This document shows positions 38,993 to 45,077 of a stretch of DNA of 60,168 nucleotides, piece after piece. The notes beneath the pieces are model-generated. The model saw nothing but the letters and a program-made list of their open reading frames with translations. It had not been told where the DNA came from and ran no database searches. The DNA lies in contig JAUJNT010000002.1 in NCBI GenBank assembly GCA_030448005.1, positions 238,773 through 298,940 of the forward strand, in the 5' to 3' direction. Position 1 is the stretch's first letter, and every line of letters starts with the position of its first letter. Source of the stretch: Thermoleophilaceae bacterium (lineage in GTDB: Bacteria > Actinomycetota > Thermoleophilia > Solirubrobacterales > Thermoleophilaceae). The translations under genes and the position numbers were made by a program.

Positions 38993-39247
38993 TCAGCCTG
39001 CCGTCGGCCGGTCGGAGCCGCCGAAGCGGCGAGCGTCTTCGACGCTTACGCCAACAACGTGGGCGAGCATGGCCTCATCACCATGAGCCTGTTCGATCTC
39101 GCTCAGTTCGTCGGCGGTGTGATCAGCCGCCTCGAAGTCGATGCCGTCGTAGATCGACTGATCGACTTCGACGTACTCGGCTTCACGCTGGCGACGACGC
39201 TCGCGCAGCGGAGGTACTGATGTGGTCATGAAACGAAGGATATTCAT
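38993..39247 (-). CDS. Small acidic hypothetical protein
   Basis: An 84-residue protein from the ATG at 39247 (ATG 39229 also possible). The N-terminus is basic (Arg-Glu-Arg-Arg-Arg-Gln-Arg), the rest acidic and helical (Glu/Asp-rich, Ala/His). It precedes the hypothetical gene at 38151-38954 by 38 bp. A small acidic first gene followed by a larger second gene resembles toxin-antitoxin or effector-immunity layouts, but there is no recognised domain. A TATACT box 81 nt upstream could be its promoter. Confidence 0.5.
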   Translation of the reverse strand: MNILRFMTTSVPPLRERRRQREAEYVEVDQSIYDGIDFEAADHTADELSEIEQAHGDEAMLAHVVGVSVEDARRFGGSDRPTAG

Positions 39248-39385: not shown

Positions 39386-39659
39386 TCACCGCAGCCAGTC
39401 CGAGGCCGCAGCAAGTCCTATCCCGCCGTTCTGCGCCCGCTCGACCAGGGCCTTACAACAGCCTTCGATGTCGAACGAGGCGCCCTCGTCGGTCCGCTTC
39501 ATCGTGACCTTTGGTCGTTTGGCCGTGCTCGGGGCACGTGACGCTCTCGCGCTTCGTCTGCACCCTCCAGGAGGGCACCCGCGACAGCCTCCTCGTGCAG
39601 ACCACCGAAGACTCCTCCCGAGACACCTTGCGGCCGCCGAGGCGATACTCGAGCGACAT
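39386..39659 (-). pseudogene. Small Cys/His-motif protein gene, frameshifted
   Basis: ATG 39659 starts Met-Ser-Leu-Glu-Tyr-Arg-Leu-Gly-Gly-Arg-Lys-Val-Ser-Arg-Glu, a well-formed N-terminus. The coding signal then jumps frame (Phe-Gly-Gly-Leu-His-Glu-Glu, a helical segment), returns for Val-Thr-Cys-Pro-Glu-His-Gly-Gln, and jumps again to Phe-Asp-Ile-Glu-Gly-Cys-Cys-Lys-Ala-Leu-Val-Glu-Arg-Ala before TGA 39386-39388. The pieces join into one roughly 90-residue protein with a Cys-Pro-x-His and a Cys-Cys, a possible metal site. It is directly downstream of the SIR2-like gene, so likely a member of the same operon. Indel errors or decay. Confidence 0.45.
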
Positions 39660-39711
39660 CAGCTCGGCTCCACAGCTCTAGGTACCGGGGGCTCGCGCGG
39701 CAGCGTTGGCT

Positions 39712-40704
39712 CTACGCCGCTCGGCCGCTGCCCGGGCGCAGGTGCTTGCGCCAGGGGGCCTCGTGAAGTGCCAGCTCGCTCCTGCCGCGCGGATAGGTGG
39801 TCGAGTCGTAGAAGTGGATGCGCTCGGCGTCGCGCAGGCTGGCGATACGGTGCTTCTCGCGGCGATTGCTCTTCGCGCCATGGTCCCGCAGCCCGATGGC
39901 CAGCGGGCGCTCCGGGTGCTCGTTCAGGGCCTCGATCAGGTGGCTGTCCTGATCGCGCAAGCTATGGCCGAAGACGACCAGCGGCGCCTCACGCCGTTTG
40001 AGCTGCTCCCAGCAGTAGGTCAAGTAGTCGTTCTCGGCGATCGAGCGCTTCTTCTCAGAGGCCTGCCCTTCGCTGACGATCAAGGGCCGTGCCGTCGCGT
40101 CGGCGCCACACGGGCGACCGAACTGGTCGAGGAGGGTCTGGCCGGTCGTCGTGCGCTTGCGGGTTAGGCCCGAGCCGAGGACGACCAGATGCAGGGCGCC
40201 GTGGAGGAAGCAGAGACGGGTGCAGATTGCCGCGTCGTGGAGCCAGATCGTGCTCTCGTCGAAGGCGTTGCAGTCGCGGGCCCAGAAGTAGTCCTTGAAG
40301 CCGTCGAAGGGCTGCTCGCCGCTGGCGGCCGACCAGTAGAGGAGGAGGTCGTAGGAGGTCGAGAAGACCCAGCGGTACATGCGCAGCTCCTCGCGGATCG
40401 CCGCGAAGGTTCTCTTCGGGATCTCGCCGCCGGTGCTATGGACCCCCTGGACCGCCTTGGCCAAGGCCTCTTGGATGCTGCGGTGGCGCTTGAGTTCGGT
40501 CGGGCGCTCCTGCCCGAAGGCGGCGCCGATCCGGATCGACTCGGAGAGCGAGTACAGGACCGTCTCGAAGTTCGCCACCCCGAGGGTCTTGAACAGCGCC
40601 TCGTCCTGGTTGGTGAAGAGCCCCATCCGACGCGCCTGGTCGAAGAGCGAGTCGTACCCGAAGTTCGGCCAGATGTTGATCGAGAGGCCATTCCCAATCA
40701 CCAA
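39712..40704 (-). CDS. SIR2-like DUF4917-family protein, N-terminus probably frameshifted
   Basis: A 330-residue open frame from TTG 40704. It has the marks of SIR2-like nucleotide-binding folds: Val-Ile-Gly-Asn-Gly-Leu-Ser at 2-8, Phe-Ser-Thr-Ser-Tyr-Asp at 114-119, Leu-His-Gly at 167-169 and Val-Phe-Gly-His-Ser-Leu-Arg-Asp-x-Asp at 244-253. These match DUF4917, often seen in defence islands, where SIR2-like proteins can act as NADases. The same frame is open upstream to 40809 and encodes a plausible N-terminus (Asn-Pro-Ile-Lys-Ser-Tyr-Asp) without a start codon; an ATG at 40784 would join it if one base were missing near 40780. It lies downstream of the nuclease and GHKL ATPase genes. Confidence 0.65.
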   Translation of the reverse strand: MVIGNGLSINIWPNFGYDSLFDQARRMGLFTNQDEALFKTLGVANFETVLYSLSESIRIGAAFGQERPTELKRHRSIQEALAKAVQGVHSTGGEIPKRTFAAIREELRMYRWVFSTSYDLLLYWSAASGEQPFDGFKDYFWARDCNAFDESTIWLHDAAICTRLCFLHGALHLVVLGSGLTRKRTTTGQTLLDQFGRPCGADATARPLIVSEGQASEKKRSIAENDYLTYCWEQLKRREAPLVVFGHSLRDQDSHLIEALNEHPERPLAIGLRDHGAKSNRREKHRIASLRDAERIHFYDSTTYPRGRSELALHEAPWRKHLRPGSGRAA

Positions 40705-40887
40705 TCCCTCCCAGACCTGGGCGTCCTGGACCTCCTCCCACGAGTTCAGGTGCCCGTCGTAGGACTTGATCGGGTTCGTGCCATTGCCACATAAAGGGTA
40801 CCGGCCTCCTCATCCCGCTCAGGGTCGCTCCCCGCCCCGTGCCTTGGGTCCTCCCGGGGCCATCGCGAACGACCGGTACGGGAACAG

Positions 40888-41742
40888 CTACTGCGTGACG
40901 TACACCCGCACCTGCAGTCCGTCGTGCTTCTTACTGAGGTCCTGCTCGAGCGCCCGGCGGTTGGTGATCCGCTTCTCGGGGTCGTAGACCAAGGCCACAA
41001 GGGCGCCGCAGTCGGGGTGCGCTTGGTAGCGCTTGATGTCGATGATCAGCTCCTCCCCTGCCTCCTTCGCACCCAGGCCCGAGCGGGTCATCTTCGTCTC
41101 GACGACGATCCGCTCGCTCTTGAGCAAGAAGTCGAGGCGAGACCGAGCGCCCGCATGCTCGGGCACATAATCCTCGGGGCGCACGTCATCGAAGAAGAGG
41201 CGCAGGAGCCCATGTACGAAGTCCTGCACGTCGTACTCGTCCTCGAGAACGATCGGATCACGGCCGCGGCTTCGGTTCGCGAGGGGCACGAGGAACTCCG
41301 AGAAGTTCCGACAGATCCGCTCGATCAGCAGGAGATCCTGACTTGCGGTCCCGGCGCCCTCCAGCTGCTGCCTGGCTTCGGTCAAGATCTGGCGCTGCTC
41401 GAGCAGAGGTCCGCGGAAGGCGATGTCGAAGGGGTTCGACCAGTAGGTGACGAGCGGGTTGTCCGGCAGATCCGGGTCGTATAGGGGGCTGACGTCTCCG
41501 GGAGCCTGGAGGAAGGCCTTGATCTTCGCGCTGAAGATGCCGCCTTCAAACTCGCCCTGGAACCGCTCCTCGTAACCCTCTGGCAGGGTGTCGAGACAGC
41601 GCGCGAACCATTCGTGGTAGCGAGAGACGAGGTCGTCGATCTGGGCATCGTCGGCCACCAGCTGCCTCTCGCCCTGGATCTGGCTGGCCAGCCGCTCCAA
41701 GTGACGACTCTCCTCGATCAGCGATCCGATGCCGCTGCTCAT
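40888..41742 (-). CDS. PD-(D/E)XK nuclease-like protein
   Basis: A 284-residue protein from ATG 41742. The N-terminal 170 residues are helical and unrecognised. The C-terminal domain fits a restriction-endonuclease fold: Ser-Arg-Leu-Asp204-Phe-Leu-Leu, a short beta turn, then Ile-Val-Val-Glu215-Thr-Lys217, the D...ExK catalytic core, followed by helix and a Val-Ala-Leu-Val-Tyr-Asp-Pro strand. Nuclease activity is inferred from this motif. The gene starts 10 bp after the GHKL ATPase stop, so the two are co-transcribed, which supports a joint restriction-like role. Confidence 0.7.
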   Translation of the reverse strand: MSSGIGSLIEESRHLERLASQIQGERQLVADDAQIDDLVSRYHEWFARCLDTLPEGYEERFQGEFEGGIFSAKIKAFLQAPGDVSPLYDPDLPDNPLVTYWSNPFDIAFRGPLLEQRQILTEARQQLEGAGTASQDLLLIERICRNFSEFLVPLANRSRGRDPIVLEDEYDVQDFVHGLLRLFFDDVRPEDYVPEHAGARSRLDFLLKSERIVVETKMTRSGLGAKEAGEELIIDIKRYQAHPDCGALVALVYDPEKRITNRRALEQDLSKKHDGLQVRVYVTQ

Positions 41743-41752
41743 CCCTGTACCG

Positions 41753-43615
41753 TCACGCCCCGGCCGCTGCTGCTTCTTCCTCGGCAGGCTCGGACGGGGC
41801 GCCGCCGCCCTGCTCGTTCGGCGAGCCCATCTTCGAGCGCACGCTGCGCCGGATCGCATTGGCCACGTGGTAGCGCTGCATGACCGCGGCCGTCAGCGCC
41901 TCCTCGGACAGGGCCGCCTCGACCTGATCCGGCGGCCAGCGCTTCTCGCCCTGAAGCGCCTGGCAGCCAATCACCGTCTCAACCAGCGCCTGCTCGAACC
42001 ACTCGTGGACGATGTCGACGACGAACTGGTTGCTGCGCTCGACGTGCTGCTCGTCGCAGAAGAAGTCGATCACGTCGGTAAAAACCCGGAAGTCGGCATT
42101 GGCGTGGATCTGGTTGACCTCGGACAGGTACTTGGCTGCGCGGTCGTCGAGGACCTCCGGGGTCCGCAGGCCGTTCTCGAGCGAGACCCACTTGACCTTC
42201 GGCAGGTCCTGCTCGGCTGGCGGGTTGGGCTCGGCCGGATCGCCTTCGTCGGCGAGCATCGCCGCGAGCAACCGGCCCGTGCGCTCCTGCTTGCGTGCCC
42301 GGCGCTCCTGCGCCTGGCTGATCTGCGGCACCCGCTCTTCTTCCGGTCGCCGCCGCCGCGGCAACACGGGGTCGGTCACGCGCATGCGCCCGTCAGGCTT
42401 CATGCGGTAGCGCGAGAGGTCGTAGAGCCGCCGGTAGCGGCGGATCCGCTCCTGGATCGCGTCGTGGTGGTCGGAGGCCTCGGCCCCGGAGATCACCGCG
42501 TCCATGTAGTCACGCAGCTCCTGCGGCATCTGCTCGCGGAAGTCCGCCGCCCAGTCGGCGTACGGCAGCGTCTGTCCGTCGATCAGCAACTGGGTCCGGG
42601 CGGTATTGGAAGTGATCTTCTTCCTGCCGTTCTTCGGCTCGATGTAGAGCACGACGCGGTCGTAGCCGAAGATCACGCCGAACTGGTGCAGGCGCGCGAC
42701 GCCGGCCCGCTGCAGGCGCATCTCGTACAGCTCGCCGTCCCACAGCGTCGCGACGTGGCCGGTATTGACCAACTCCGACGCGTTGCGCCGCTTGTCGCTG
42801 TCCTCCAGCAGCCACCAGTGCACCGTGCACTCCGGAAGTTCGGCCTTGCCGGCCTGCTCACTGAACTCGGCGAGGAAGCGACCCTGACCACGGACCGTCC
42901 GCAACAGGTTGCGCTTCTCGTCAGGGGCGGCGTCCCAACCCTCGCGGGCCTTAACCTCAACCTGGTCGAAGCTCAGGTAGCGGGCGTTCAGGTAGCGCGA
43001 GAGCCAGCGCGAGGGCGTTGGGACGCCGTCCGGGGGCATGATCGTGTTGTGGTCGTCGTCCCGCCCGAGCAAGATCACCTTGGTCCCGTGCTCGCCGACC
43101 TCAGCTGGCTTGTGCTGCTCGGCAATCGGAATCCAATAATTCCAGCGGCCGTCCTTCAGCGGGAAGCGGCGCAGCCCGTACTGCTCGGTAATCGGGTCGC
43201 GCCAGAGCTGGATCATGGCGCCCTTGCCGTCCTTCCAGGACTGATAGATGAGGCCCGCGGGGTTGCGCGTCGCCGCGGCGACCTTGGCACCCACGCCGTA
43301 GTTGCCGTCGATCGCCTGCTCATGGATGGAGGAGGAGAGGCGGTTGATATACATGCGCATCTCGTCAGGCGTCATCCCGAGGCCGTTGTCGATGCAGCAC
43401 AACTTCTGGACACCGTCGATCTGGAACGTCGGCCAGTCGACGTCCCAGACGATCTTCGTAGCGCCGGCCTGGAGGGCGTTCTCGGTGAGCTCGCGGATGA
43501 ACTGCAAGTCGTCGCAGTCGCGGCCGAGCCGCTCGAGCATGAAGCCGATGTTGGCGACCTCCATCGGCATGGTCTCGTCAAAGCCCGTGACGGGCTCGCT
43601 GTAGGGGTCGTCCAC
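41753..43615 (-). CDS. GHKL-family ATPase (HSP90/MutL/MORC-like)
   Basis: A 620-residue protein with a complete Bergerat ATP-binding fold at the N-terminus: Glu42-Leu-Thr-Glu-Asn46-Ala (N box), Ile-Asp76-Asn-Gly78-Leu-Gly80-Met (G1) and Gly104-Asn-Tyr-Gly-Val-Gly109 (G2). The middle part (about 180-400) is beta-rich with several Arg/Lys, then a charged Arg/Glu linker (about 400-450) and a helical C-terminal domain ending in an Ala/Glu tail. GHKL ATPases of the MutL/MORC type are known partners in bacterial restriction-modification clusters. GTG start with a strong AGGAGG 7 nt upstream. First gene of the operon with the nuclease and SIR2-like genes. Confidence 0.82.
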   Translation of the reverse strand: MDDPYSEPVTGFDETMPMEVANIGFMLERLGRDCDDLQFIRELTENALQAGATKIVWDVDWPTFQIDGVQKLCCIDNGLGMTPDEMRMYINRLSSSIHEQAIDGNYGVGAKVAAATRNPAGLIYQSWKDGKGAMIQLWRDPITEQYGLRRFPLKDGRWNYWIPIAEQHKPAEVGEHGTKVILLGRDDDHNTIMPPDGVPTPSRWLSRYLNARYLSFDQVEVKAREGWDAAPDEKRNLLRTVRGQGRFLAEFSEQAGKAELPECTVHWWLLEDSDKRRNASELVNTGHVATLWDGELYEMRLQRAGVARLHQFGVIFGYDRVVLYIEPKNGRKKITSNTARTQLLIDGQTLPYADWAADFREQMPQELRDYMDAVISGAEASDHHDAIQERIRRYRRLYDLSRYRMKPDGRMRVTDPVLPRRRRPEEERVPQISQAQERRARKQERTGRLLAAMLADEGDPAEPNPPAEQDLPKVKWVSLENGLRTPEVLDDRAAKYLSEVNQIHANADFRVFTDVIDFFCDEQHVERSNQFVVDIVHEWFEQALVETVIGCQALQGEKRWPPDQVEAALSEEALTAAVMQRYHVANAIRRSVRSKMGSPNEQGGGAPSEPAEEEAAAAGA

Positions 43616-43622
43616 TGAAGGA

Positions 43623-43628
43623 ACCTCC
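43623..43628 (-). promoter_or_regulatory. Strong Shine-Dalgarno (AGGAGG) fixing the GHKL start
   Basis: AGGAGG on the minus strand lies 7 nt before the GTG at 43615, the best ribosome-binding site in the window. It decides the GTG start and contrasts with the leaderless pattern of the divergent methyltransferase gene. Confidence 0.7.
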
Positions 43629-43692
43629 TAGTCGGTGCGGGGCAACCCGCCTGGACAGGGCGGCCGACTTCGTCTGGTGAGGTGGCGGTGGG

Positions 43693-43705
43693 ACGACTGA
43701 GTCGT
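43693..43705. promoter_or_regulatory. 13-bp perfect palindrome in divergent promoter
   Basis: ACGACT-G-AGTCGT is a perfect inverted repeat with a 1-bp centre, 77 bp from the GHKL start and 97 bp from the methyltransferase start. It could be an operator for the divergent pair or a recognition site of the methyltransferase. Confidence 0.35.
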
Positions 43706-43790
43706 GCGACCACCAACTCACGCGGCGAGCTGGCCTATGTGAGAAACGACGATACAGCACCCCCACGGCGGTCAGGTCCTACCGCTGCAG

Positions 43791-43796
43791 TAGCGT
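43791..43796 (+). promoter_or_regulatory. Candidate -10 box (TAGCGT) for methyltransferase gene
   Basis: TAGCGT ends 6 nt before the GTG at 43803; no Shine-Dalgarno is present, so a leaderless mRNA is likely. Confidence 0.4.
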
Positions 43797-43802
43797 GAAC
43801 GT

Positions 43803-45077
43803 GTGACCGCCGGTGTAGATCACAACGCACCTAGCCACTTCGCGGGTTACGTCGATGAGCTGGCCGAGCTGCTCGTCGAAGCGCGACGCGAGAGCGCTCG
43901 TGCGCGAGTTACAGCCGCTCTCGACGGCGGTGCGGCACGGGCGTTCCGGGAGCGAGTAGCGCTCGACATTCGCCGCCAGGCCGGCGCCTTCTTCACAGGT
44001 CGCCAACTCGCCGATCGTCTGCTCGCTGGCGATCTGCCCACACCGCGACCTCTGACGGATCCGGCGGCCGGCGCCGGCGATCTGCTCCTGGCCGGCGCGC
44101 GCCAGCTGCCGCTCGAGAAAAACCTCTCAGCGACTCTGCGCGCCTGGGGCAGCGTGCTGCAGGGGCGCGAGCTGGAGCCCACCCTGGTGCGGGCGACGCG
44201 CTTGCGTCTGGCGCTGCTGGCGGGCGCGCGCCTCAACAAGCCGGTCCGGATCGACGAGGCTGGGCTGGCCGAGCTGTTGCCGGAGATCACTGTCGGCGAC
44301 GGGCTCCAGCTCGAGCACGAGCGGCCGATCACGCTCCTCGTGAACCCACCCTTCGGCTCGGTCACCGAGAAGCTCGAGTGGGGCGAGGGCCGCCTCGGCC
44401 GCGCAGCTGTATTCATGGCCAAGTGTCTCGAGGCCTCGCCGGTGGGGTCACCGGTGCGGGCAATTCTGCCGGACGTGTTACGCAGCGGAAGCAACTACGC
44501 CCGCTGGCGCACACACATCGAGTCGGTCGTGGCCGGCGCCACGGTCGAGCCCTACGGCCAGTTCGACGCGTGGACCGACGTCGATGTCTTCACGCTCAAA
44601 GCCACGCGCGCCGAGGGCGGCCCCGCGATCGCCTGGTGGCGCAAGGACGAGGCCGAGCGCCGTGTCGAGGACCGCTTCGAGGTCAGCGTCGGCGCGGTCG
44701 TCCCGCACCGGGATCCTGAGGAGGGCAAGGAGAGCCCCTACATCTGCGCCAGGGACCTCGCTGGCCAGGACGAACACTGGGCGGGCACGATCCGCCGACG
44801 CCACCCGGGCCGAGTCTTCCGCGCACCCTTCGTAGCGGTGCGCCGCACGTCACGGCCGGCGGCGGGTGGGCGCCGCGTCCCGGCGACGATCGTGCGCTGC
44901 AAGGACCCAGTGCTGGCGGAGAACCACCTGCTGATCTGCCGCCCGCGGGACGGGTCGCTGCGAACGTGCGCTGAACTCGTCGCCGTGCTGGCTAGCGCAG
45001 AGGCCGGCGCTTGGCTCGACGCGCGCATCCGCTGCCGCCATCTGACTGTGACTGCGCTGCGTGAGCTTCCGCTGTAG
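43803..45077 (+). CDS. N6-adenine DNA methyltransferase
   Basis: A 424-residue class I methyltransferase of the gamma type. Gly-Ala-Phe-Phe-Thr-Gly-Arg-Gln-Leu-Ala (61-70) is the usual lead-in of N6-adenine methylases. Motif I is Asp-Pro-Ala-Ala-Gly-Ala-Gly-Asp (86-93) and motif IV is Asn-Pro-Pro-Phe-Gly (181-185), the catalytic NPPF/Y. The remainder (about 230-424) may be a target-recognition part; no helicase or nuclease domain is fused. It would methylate adenines in a specific sequence and protect the host, with the divergent GHKL ATPase/PD-(D/E)XK genes as candidate restriction arm. A solitary regulatory methylase is the alternative. Confidence 0.82.
   Translation: MTAGVDHNAPSHFAGYVDELAELLVEARRESARARVTAALDGGAARAFRERVALDIRRQAGAFFTGRQLADRLLAGDLPTPRPLTDPAAGAGDLLLAGARQLPLEKNLSATLRAWGSVLQGRELEPTLVRATRLRLALLAGARLNKPVRIDEAGLAELLPEITVGDGLQLEHERPITLLVNPPFGSVTEKLEWGEGRLGRAAVFMAKCLEASPVGSPVRAILPDVLRSGSNYARWRTHIESVVAGATVEPYGQFDAWTDVDVFTLKATRAEGGPAIAWWRKDEAERRVEDRFEVSVGAVVPHRDPEEGKESPYICARDLAGQDEHWAGTIRRRHPGRVFRAPFVAVRRTSRPAAGGRRVPATIVRCKDPVLAENHLLICRPRDGSLRTCAELVAVLASAEAGAWLDARIRCRHLTVTALRELPL

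Follow-up and report, generated by a model that had tools for sequence, protein, structure and literature searches.

A low-GC island of a Thermoleophilaceae bacterium with a possible MORC-type ATPase restriction-modification-like module and a probably separate DUF4917 gene

Operons in which a GHKL ATPase of the paraMORC or MORC type, with an S5 domain and intact motifs, stands beside a DNA methyltransferase (MTase) and a restriction-fold nuclease were predicted to be restriction-modification (R-M) systems by Iyer, Abhiman and Aravind in 2008 (PMC2292703); an SFII helicase accompanies about 70% of the MORC cases and is not obligatory. Kinase-like paraMORCs are also known with R-M systems, mainly of the C5 type (PMC8011034), and VcSduA, a Shedu protein with a GHKL domain (paraMORC3), unites GHKL and PD-(D/E)XK parts in one anti-phage protein (PMC12137116). 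EcbAgaN is an unspecific PD-(D/E)XK DNase that is activated by Argonaute and degrades the genome, E. coli genomic DNA too (PMC10620215). Here, genes for an N6-adenine MTase, a MORC-like GHKL ATPase, a PD-(D/E)XK nuclease and a SIR2-like DUF4917 protein are described in a 60,168-nucleotide stretch (hereafter, the window) of a Thermoleophilaceae bacterium (assembly GCA_030448005.1, contig JAUJNT010000002.1, positions 238,773 to 298,940). An earlier reading of the DNA alone (the original prediction) had taken them for one undescribed defence system. The explanation that we tentatively prefer is a horizontally assembled mosaic defence island, consisting of a three-gene MORC-ATPase restriction-modification-like module (MTase, ATPase and nuclease) and an independent DUF4917 gene. 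The three genes probably represent a rare R-M variant of the paraMORC kind predicted in 2008.

This explanation is based on the gene identities, the catalytic motifs, the MORC-like fold of the ATPase, the tight linkage of the ATPase and nuclease genes and the recurrent pairing of the MTase family with one or another putative restriction half. All four enzyme genes are real and have conserved catalytic motifs, as judged from Pfam and PADLOC matches and homologue alignments, and the set corresponds to no PADLOC system, in agreement with the original statement that no named system with exactly this set was known. As in the paraMORC/MORC R-M operons (PMC2292703), a GHKL and S5 ATPase with intact motifs stands beside a DNA MTase and a restriction-fold nuclease, and a minority of those operons also has no helicase, none being recognized among the open reading frames (ORFs) of the island. 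The window differs from them in that its ATPase lacks the MORC-specific S5 motif and comes from a family for which PADLOC has no model and Pfam no specific one; moreover, its nuclease belongs to the DpnII-MboI/AgaN type and its N6-MTase to a family with swapped partners. Adjacency of ATPase and MTase recurs with other MTase families, whereas the exact set of the window does not.

The other described systems share less with the window. VcSduA likewise combines a GHKL ATPase with a PD-(D/E)XK nuclease, which the ATPase controls in that anti-phage protein, but there a single polypeptide contains the GHKL part and a DUF4263 nuclease, and an MTase is missing; the window has two genes and a DpnII-MboI nuclease. 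In the HEF_HK/Response_reg_2 paraMORC-related R-M neighbourhoods (PMC8011034), GHKL ATPase and receiver-like genes lie downstream of a DNA MTase, an arrangement seen also around the relatives of the window MTase on plasmids and viral contigs; however, the MTases of the described neighbourhoods are mostly of the C5 type, and the window is devoid of genes for a kinase core, a receiver, an HNH or an MBL protein. The Argonaute-associated nucleases of EcBPAN and SPARDA (PMC10620215, PMC12205087) have a domain homologous to the window nuclease. Their partner is an Argonaute, whereas none is found among the neighbouring ORFs of the island; the role of sensor would fall here to the GHKL ATPase or to no protein. 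Judging from general knowledge of the systems, Thoeris was rejected for want of a TIR partner and Detocs because the window has neither a kinase nor a receiver gene; Gabija was also rejected, its genes standing beside a nuclease homologue in another locus (L018), as a pair to which that homologue does not belong, and not in the window.

The ATPase matched Pfam HATPase_c_3 (E = 3e-9), and its N box (E42xxxN46), G1 (D76xGxG80), G2 (N105xGxG109AK) and G3 (GT) are invariant in an 11-member alignment, so the N, G1 and G2 boxes are intact as originally described. Its structure model (mean predicted local distance difference test score, 75) consists of a GHKL and S5-type module (about residues 19-381), a low-confidence linker (400-468) and a C-terminal alpha/beta domain (about 470-600). 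The model was best aligned to MORC2 and MORC3 (Z = 19.5 over about 300 residues), closed-state Hsp90 gave Z = 18.2, and the top Foldseek match was MutL. The MutL/MORC likeness of the original prediction stands, as does its placing of the enzymes among defence types. The protein therefore has the GHKL motifs and S5 domain required of a MORC/paraMORC R-M operon. Because the MORC-specific S5 motif GhXhhpXXRhl is absent (the stretch G313-VIFGYDRVVL has no arginine at position 9 in an alignment read by eye), it is called MORC-like and not a MORC protein proper. In the same genome, a second, diverged relative with an interrupting stop codon (G000:C1:441841-442497) is apparently a decayed copy.

A scan of the genome contigs with the single ATPase protein found nothing; a query with the family alignment found nine relatives there. 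DNA MTases of the C5, N6 or N4/N6 type, from families different from that of the window, adjoin ATPase homologues in several unrelated loci: C5-MTase and Vsr in two Acidobacteria (L020 and L021), an NPPF MTase in a Hyphomicrobiales genome (L026) and an N6/N4 MTase in a phage (L048). Other homologues neighbour RNase H (L019), SEC-C (L022), SMC and NACHT proteins (L023) or Schlafen (L024). The family might instead be a DNA-processing factor of mobile elements, acting in recombination, replication or transfer and not in immunity, and its presence here would then mark a decayed mobile element. Phage homologues do lie near genes resembling those for YqaJ- and ERF-type recombination and terminase (names given by sequence inspection), on a Dinoroseobacter plasmid one homologue adjoins genes for a relaxase and a type IV coupling protein, and that of L019 follows a relaxase-like gene. 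However, the MTase, Vsr, Schlafen and SMC/NACHT neighbours are typical of defence islands, and no integrase, relaxase or phage gene was recognized among the island ORFs examined in the window, so that we consider this explanation very unlikely. Homologues are also found in marine phages (the L049 to L054 group), where a PD-(D/E)XK-like nuclease follows (Pfam was run on L049 only, with a score below the cut-off). In the viral contigs L049-L052 and L054, the distant MORC-like ATPase is directly followed by this nuclease, possibly as a recombination or counter-defence pair.

The nuclease matched the Pfam DpnII-MboI family (E = 2e-43) and the PADLOC Aga_Helical-REase model (E = 2e-26), and the nearest solved chain in a profile search was EcbAgaN (E = 3e-9); the AgaN-type nuclease domain, a trait of SPARDA and BPAN, is thus present. 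It has a helical N-terminal part followed by the nuclease domain (about residues 132-284), and the predicted catalytic residues D204, E215 and K217 are invariant in nine homologues. Foldseek with the nuclease model gave no match at E <= 0.001, and a second structure comparison gave mostly restriction-fold matches with Z < 8; the modelled structure thus points to a restriction fold and to no specific family. On an E. coli IncX4 plasmid (L016:5998-9505), two nuclease paralogues flank an Abi family gene, and the first of them bears the wrong name malate dehydrogenase, an error repeated on many plasmids. The literature search returned nothing for PF18742 or 6A-MBL. The ATPase and nuclease genes lie on the same strand at a distance of exactly 10 bp, as first noted, and because of this short gap their cotranscription is suggested.

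Further evidence comes from the relatives of the MTase, whose motif I (DPAAGAGD) and motif IV (NPPF), recognized already in the original prediction, have key residues invariant in five full-length homologues. Full-length homologues (32-39% identity) exist on plasmids of Hymenobacter, Burkholderia, Klebsiella and Rhizobium and in 15 viral contigs, whereas none was found in the phage records, in 396 genomes sampled from the phylum (the source genome excepted) or, when the DNA of the Klebsiella gene was the query, in E. coli. Intact flanks were present in 15 loci (13 of them independent), and every one of these contains a putative restriction half beside the MTase homologue. In ten, this half combines a GHKL kinase-like protein, a receiver-like protein and either an HNH protein (L046, L047, L064-L066, L069 and L070) or an MBL-fold protein (L044, L045 and L072); in the other five (L071, L073-L075 and L078), it is a convergent GmrSD_N and HEPN_MAE_28990 pair, HEPN MAE_28990 being already known in the company of a ParB nuclease and of genes for DNA methylases (PMC3710099). 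The loci outside the 15 were cut (L067, L068 and L077) or lay at a contig end (L076, which may be a further HEPN case). The N-terminal half of the kinase-like partner is weakly matched to the BbrUII/HgiDII restriction-enzyme family (78 bits; cut-off, 550), and the Hymenobacter kinase-like protein compares with the window ATPase at E = 0.33 only. The association of N6-MTase with a GHKL ATPase, as originally proposed, is therefore a recurring theme of these loci, but the GHKL partner in them is of a different family. The MTase family, with one or another of its three partner modules, is often found in prophage-like or plasmid defence regions; on Klebsiella pBM374-1 (L046), the MTase and kinase module lies a few kbp from the anti-phage gene ppl, and the kinase gene is in pieces in the record.

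The family thus seems to travel with exchangeable partners, and the GHKL and nuclease pair beside the window MTase fits this rule, though its GHKL family differs. The three-gene module is favoured because homologues of the MTase have a putative restriction half beside them in all 15 loci with intact flanks, GHKL-type in ten, because DNA MTases flank ATPase homologues in unrelated loci and a PD-(D/E)XK-like nuclease follows the ATPase in marine phages, and because of the MORC2/MORC3-like structure, the 10-bp gap and the paraMORC and VcSduA precedents. In such a module, the N6-MTase would methylate an adenine motif in the host DNA as a self mark; the ATPase would close in an ATP-dependent manner on unmodified DNA, as MutL and MORC do, and would then recruit or license the nuclease, which would cut the DNA. 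This joint action, and methylation-guided cleavage in particular, is proposed by analogy with paraMORC R-M operons and VcSduA. If the three genes cooperate, they would constitute a small, helicase-free system for the coupling of methylation status to nuclease action by a MORC-type ATPase, an open question for MORC proteins generally. A bolder and rather improbable proposal is that the MTase family supplies the constant modification part of a plug-in immunity, and that the restriction part is swapped (GHKL-kinase/receiver/HNH, GHKL-kinase/receiver/MBL, GmrSD/HEPN and, here, a MORC-like ATPase that licenses a DNase of the AgaN type). On that view the window would represent a fourth type, so far undescribed, whose MORC clamp and collateral destruction of DNA would be set off when methylation is lost. 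The recurrent pairing of a single N6-MTase family with putative restriction halves of at least three unrelated kinds offers a testable rule for finding more systems.

Relatives of the four families were collected from whole genomes, plasmids and viral contigs, and all loci (about 28 for the ATPase, 15 for the nuclease, 20 for the MTase and ten for DUF4917) were scanned with the four family profiles; some had short flanks, and of the plasmid nuclease matches only a few were opened. No two of the four families were found in one locus outside the source genome, and none of the other genomes examined had the exact four-gene set. All four are rare, being present in only four (ATPase), three (nuclease), two (MTase) and seven (DUF4917) of 151 related genomes, including the source; where another genome (G113 or G087) had two of them, they were on different contigs.

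Several of our results weigh against the three-gene module, the main weaknesses being the absence of the exact set elsewhere and the solitary nuclease. The MTase family with the ATPase family, or the ATPase family with the nuclease family, was seen in no other scanned locus. Homologues of the nuclease are lone genes on IncX4 plasmids, in filamentous-phage-like and other viral contigs and in prophages, and the nuclease may therefore need no ATPase; the window's MTase family occurs in none of the 15 nuclease loci, and no MTase gene was apparent beside those inspected, so that the cognate MTase expected with the nuclease family of a type II R-M system was not seen. By analogy, kinship with EcbAgaN would fit a collateral effector better than a restriction enzyme blocked by methylation. 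The MTase gene, moreover, has a guanine-plus-cytosine (GC) content of 71%, as compared with 64-67% in the neighbouring genes, and the lowest codon score; on account of this differing composition, it may have arrived separately. An appreciable but clearly smaller chance is thus given to an anti-phage or anti-plasmid pair, in which the ATPase senses DNA structure, the nuclease is the effector, possibly by collateral DNA damage, and the MTase is a separate acquisition that is unneeded for self-protection. Such a pair agrees with the short gap and shared strand of the two genes, with the opposite strand and composition of the MTase, with the EcbAgaN-like nuclease domain and with VcSduA, whose nuclease is under GHKL control without an MTase; however, the pair was not found in the other scanned loci, and in none of the 15 loci with intact flanks is the MTase family solitary.

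It is also conceivable, and only slightly less likely than the pair, that four unrelated selfish or defence genes accumulated at one hotspot without cooperation, as a solo nuclease, a solo DUF4917 gene, an MTase remnant and an ATPase of mobile elements. The absence of any co-occurrence outside the source genome, the lone state of nuclease and DUF4917 genes elsewhere, the great diversity of ATPase neighbours (RNase H, SEC-C, SMC and Schlafen) and the possible damage to the window DUF4917 gene all accord with accumulation, whereas the ATPase and nuclease genes nearly abut, and MTase-GHKL neighbourhoods recur with other GHKL families.

In the preferred explanation, the DUF4917 gene is the second unit of the island, an independent, single-gene defence candidate whose 5' end may be damaged. 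It matched Pfam DUF4917 (E = 9e-41) and, strongly and over the full length (residues 19-345; E = 3.6e-88), PADLOC PDC-S21. SIR2-like proteins in the PDB were weakly matched in a profile search (E = 0.002), which suggests that the label SIR2-like is appropriate; in the TxxYD motif, Ser replaces Asn, as in some relatives. The family assignment of the original prediction was therefore right, but the copy lacks the usual start: the conserved N-terminal segment DGHLNSW is present with no ATG, GTG or TTG ahead of it, and the first usual start codon falls inside the conserved N-terminus. Because of this, a broken 5' end, an unusual start or an assembly error is assumed. Elsewhere, DUF4917 homologues stand alone, and on a Vibrio plasmid the gene adjoins DUF3265 genes, which suggests an integron cassette; DUF4917 is probably self-sufficient. 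In the literature search, DUF4917 turned up in a single paper, on an unrelated subject. On a Roseomonas plasmid (L109:2432-4285), a different GHKL ATPase (617 aa) is encoded two genes upstream of DUF4917, with a cytosine MTase about 3 kbp beyond.

The single four-part, two-tier system first proposed (methylation-guided cleavage with NAD depletion by the SIR2-like protein as a back-up) is consequently highly improbable. The four genes do lie within 5.7 kbp, with DUF4917 downstream of the nuclease on the same strand, and the Roseomonas plasmid also has a GHKL ATPase near DUF4917. However, the other three families occur in none of the ten DUF4917 loci, the window copy has no normal start, and the NAD back-up is unsupported because elsewhere both DUF4917 and the nuclease occur as single genes. 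The original prediction had itself named a lack of co-occurrence as the result that would speak against one system, and this is what was found in our sample; four defence enzymes side by side are no evidence of one system.

The features of the island are listed in Table 1. The segment from 38.0 to 43.6 kb has a lower GC content (61-67%) than the window mean of 71%, and this, together with the rarity of all four families in relatives, is consistent with acquisition by gene transfer. An empty-site comparison with the sister species gave no result because nothing in the genus corresponds closely to the sugar genes around the island.

Table 1. Features of the island, in positions of the window
Feature	Position	Strand	Basis or remark
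N6-adenine DNA methyltransferase, 424 aa	43803..45077	+	DPAAGAGD, NPPF; conserved C-terminal RRTSxP / ENHL / RCRHLT region
Divergent intergenic region between MTase and ATPase genes, 187 bp	43616..43802	.	promoters likely in both directions (inferred)
MORC-like GHKL ATPase, 620 aa	41753..43615	-	Pfam HATPase_c_3, homologue alignment, structure model
PD-(D/E)XK nuclease, DpnII-MboI / Argonaute-associated-nuclease (AgaN) type, 284 aa	40888..41742	-	Pfam, PADLOC, homologue alignment
DUF4917 (SIR2-like, PADLOC PDC-S21)	39712..40806	-	open frame to 40806; first usual start codon (TTG) at 40704
Small orphan ORF, 84 aa from second ATG	38993..39247	-	coding-like codon use; no family match
Orphan ORF, 267 aa	38151..38954	-	coding-like codon use; no detectable relatives

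The two orphan ORFs, downstream of DUF4917 on the same strand and in the same low-GC segment, complete the island and were not part of the original prediction; searches of 101 related genomes and of the plasmid collection gave no relative of the longer one. On the codon score scale used here, real genes range from 0.23 to 0.54 bits/codon, and spurious ORFs have a mean of -0.39 and a 95% point of 0.14. The small Cys/His protein of the original prediction (39453-39659) scored -0.07 bits/codon, outside the range of real genes, and is not supported as a gene. A candidate ORF at 39386-39502, which is shorter than the Cys/His ORF, scored 0.23.

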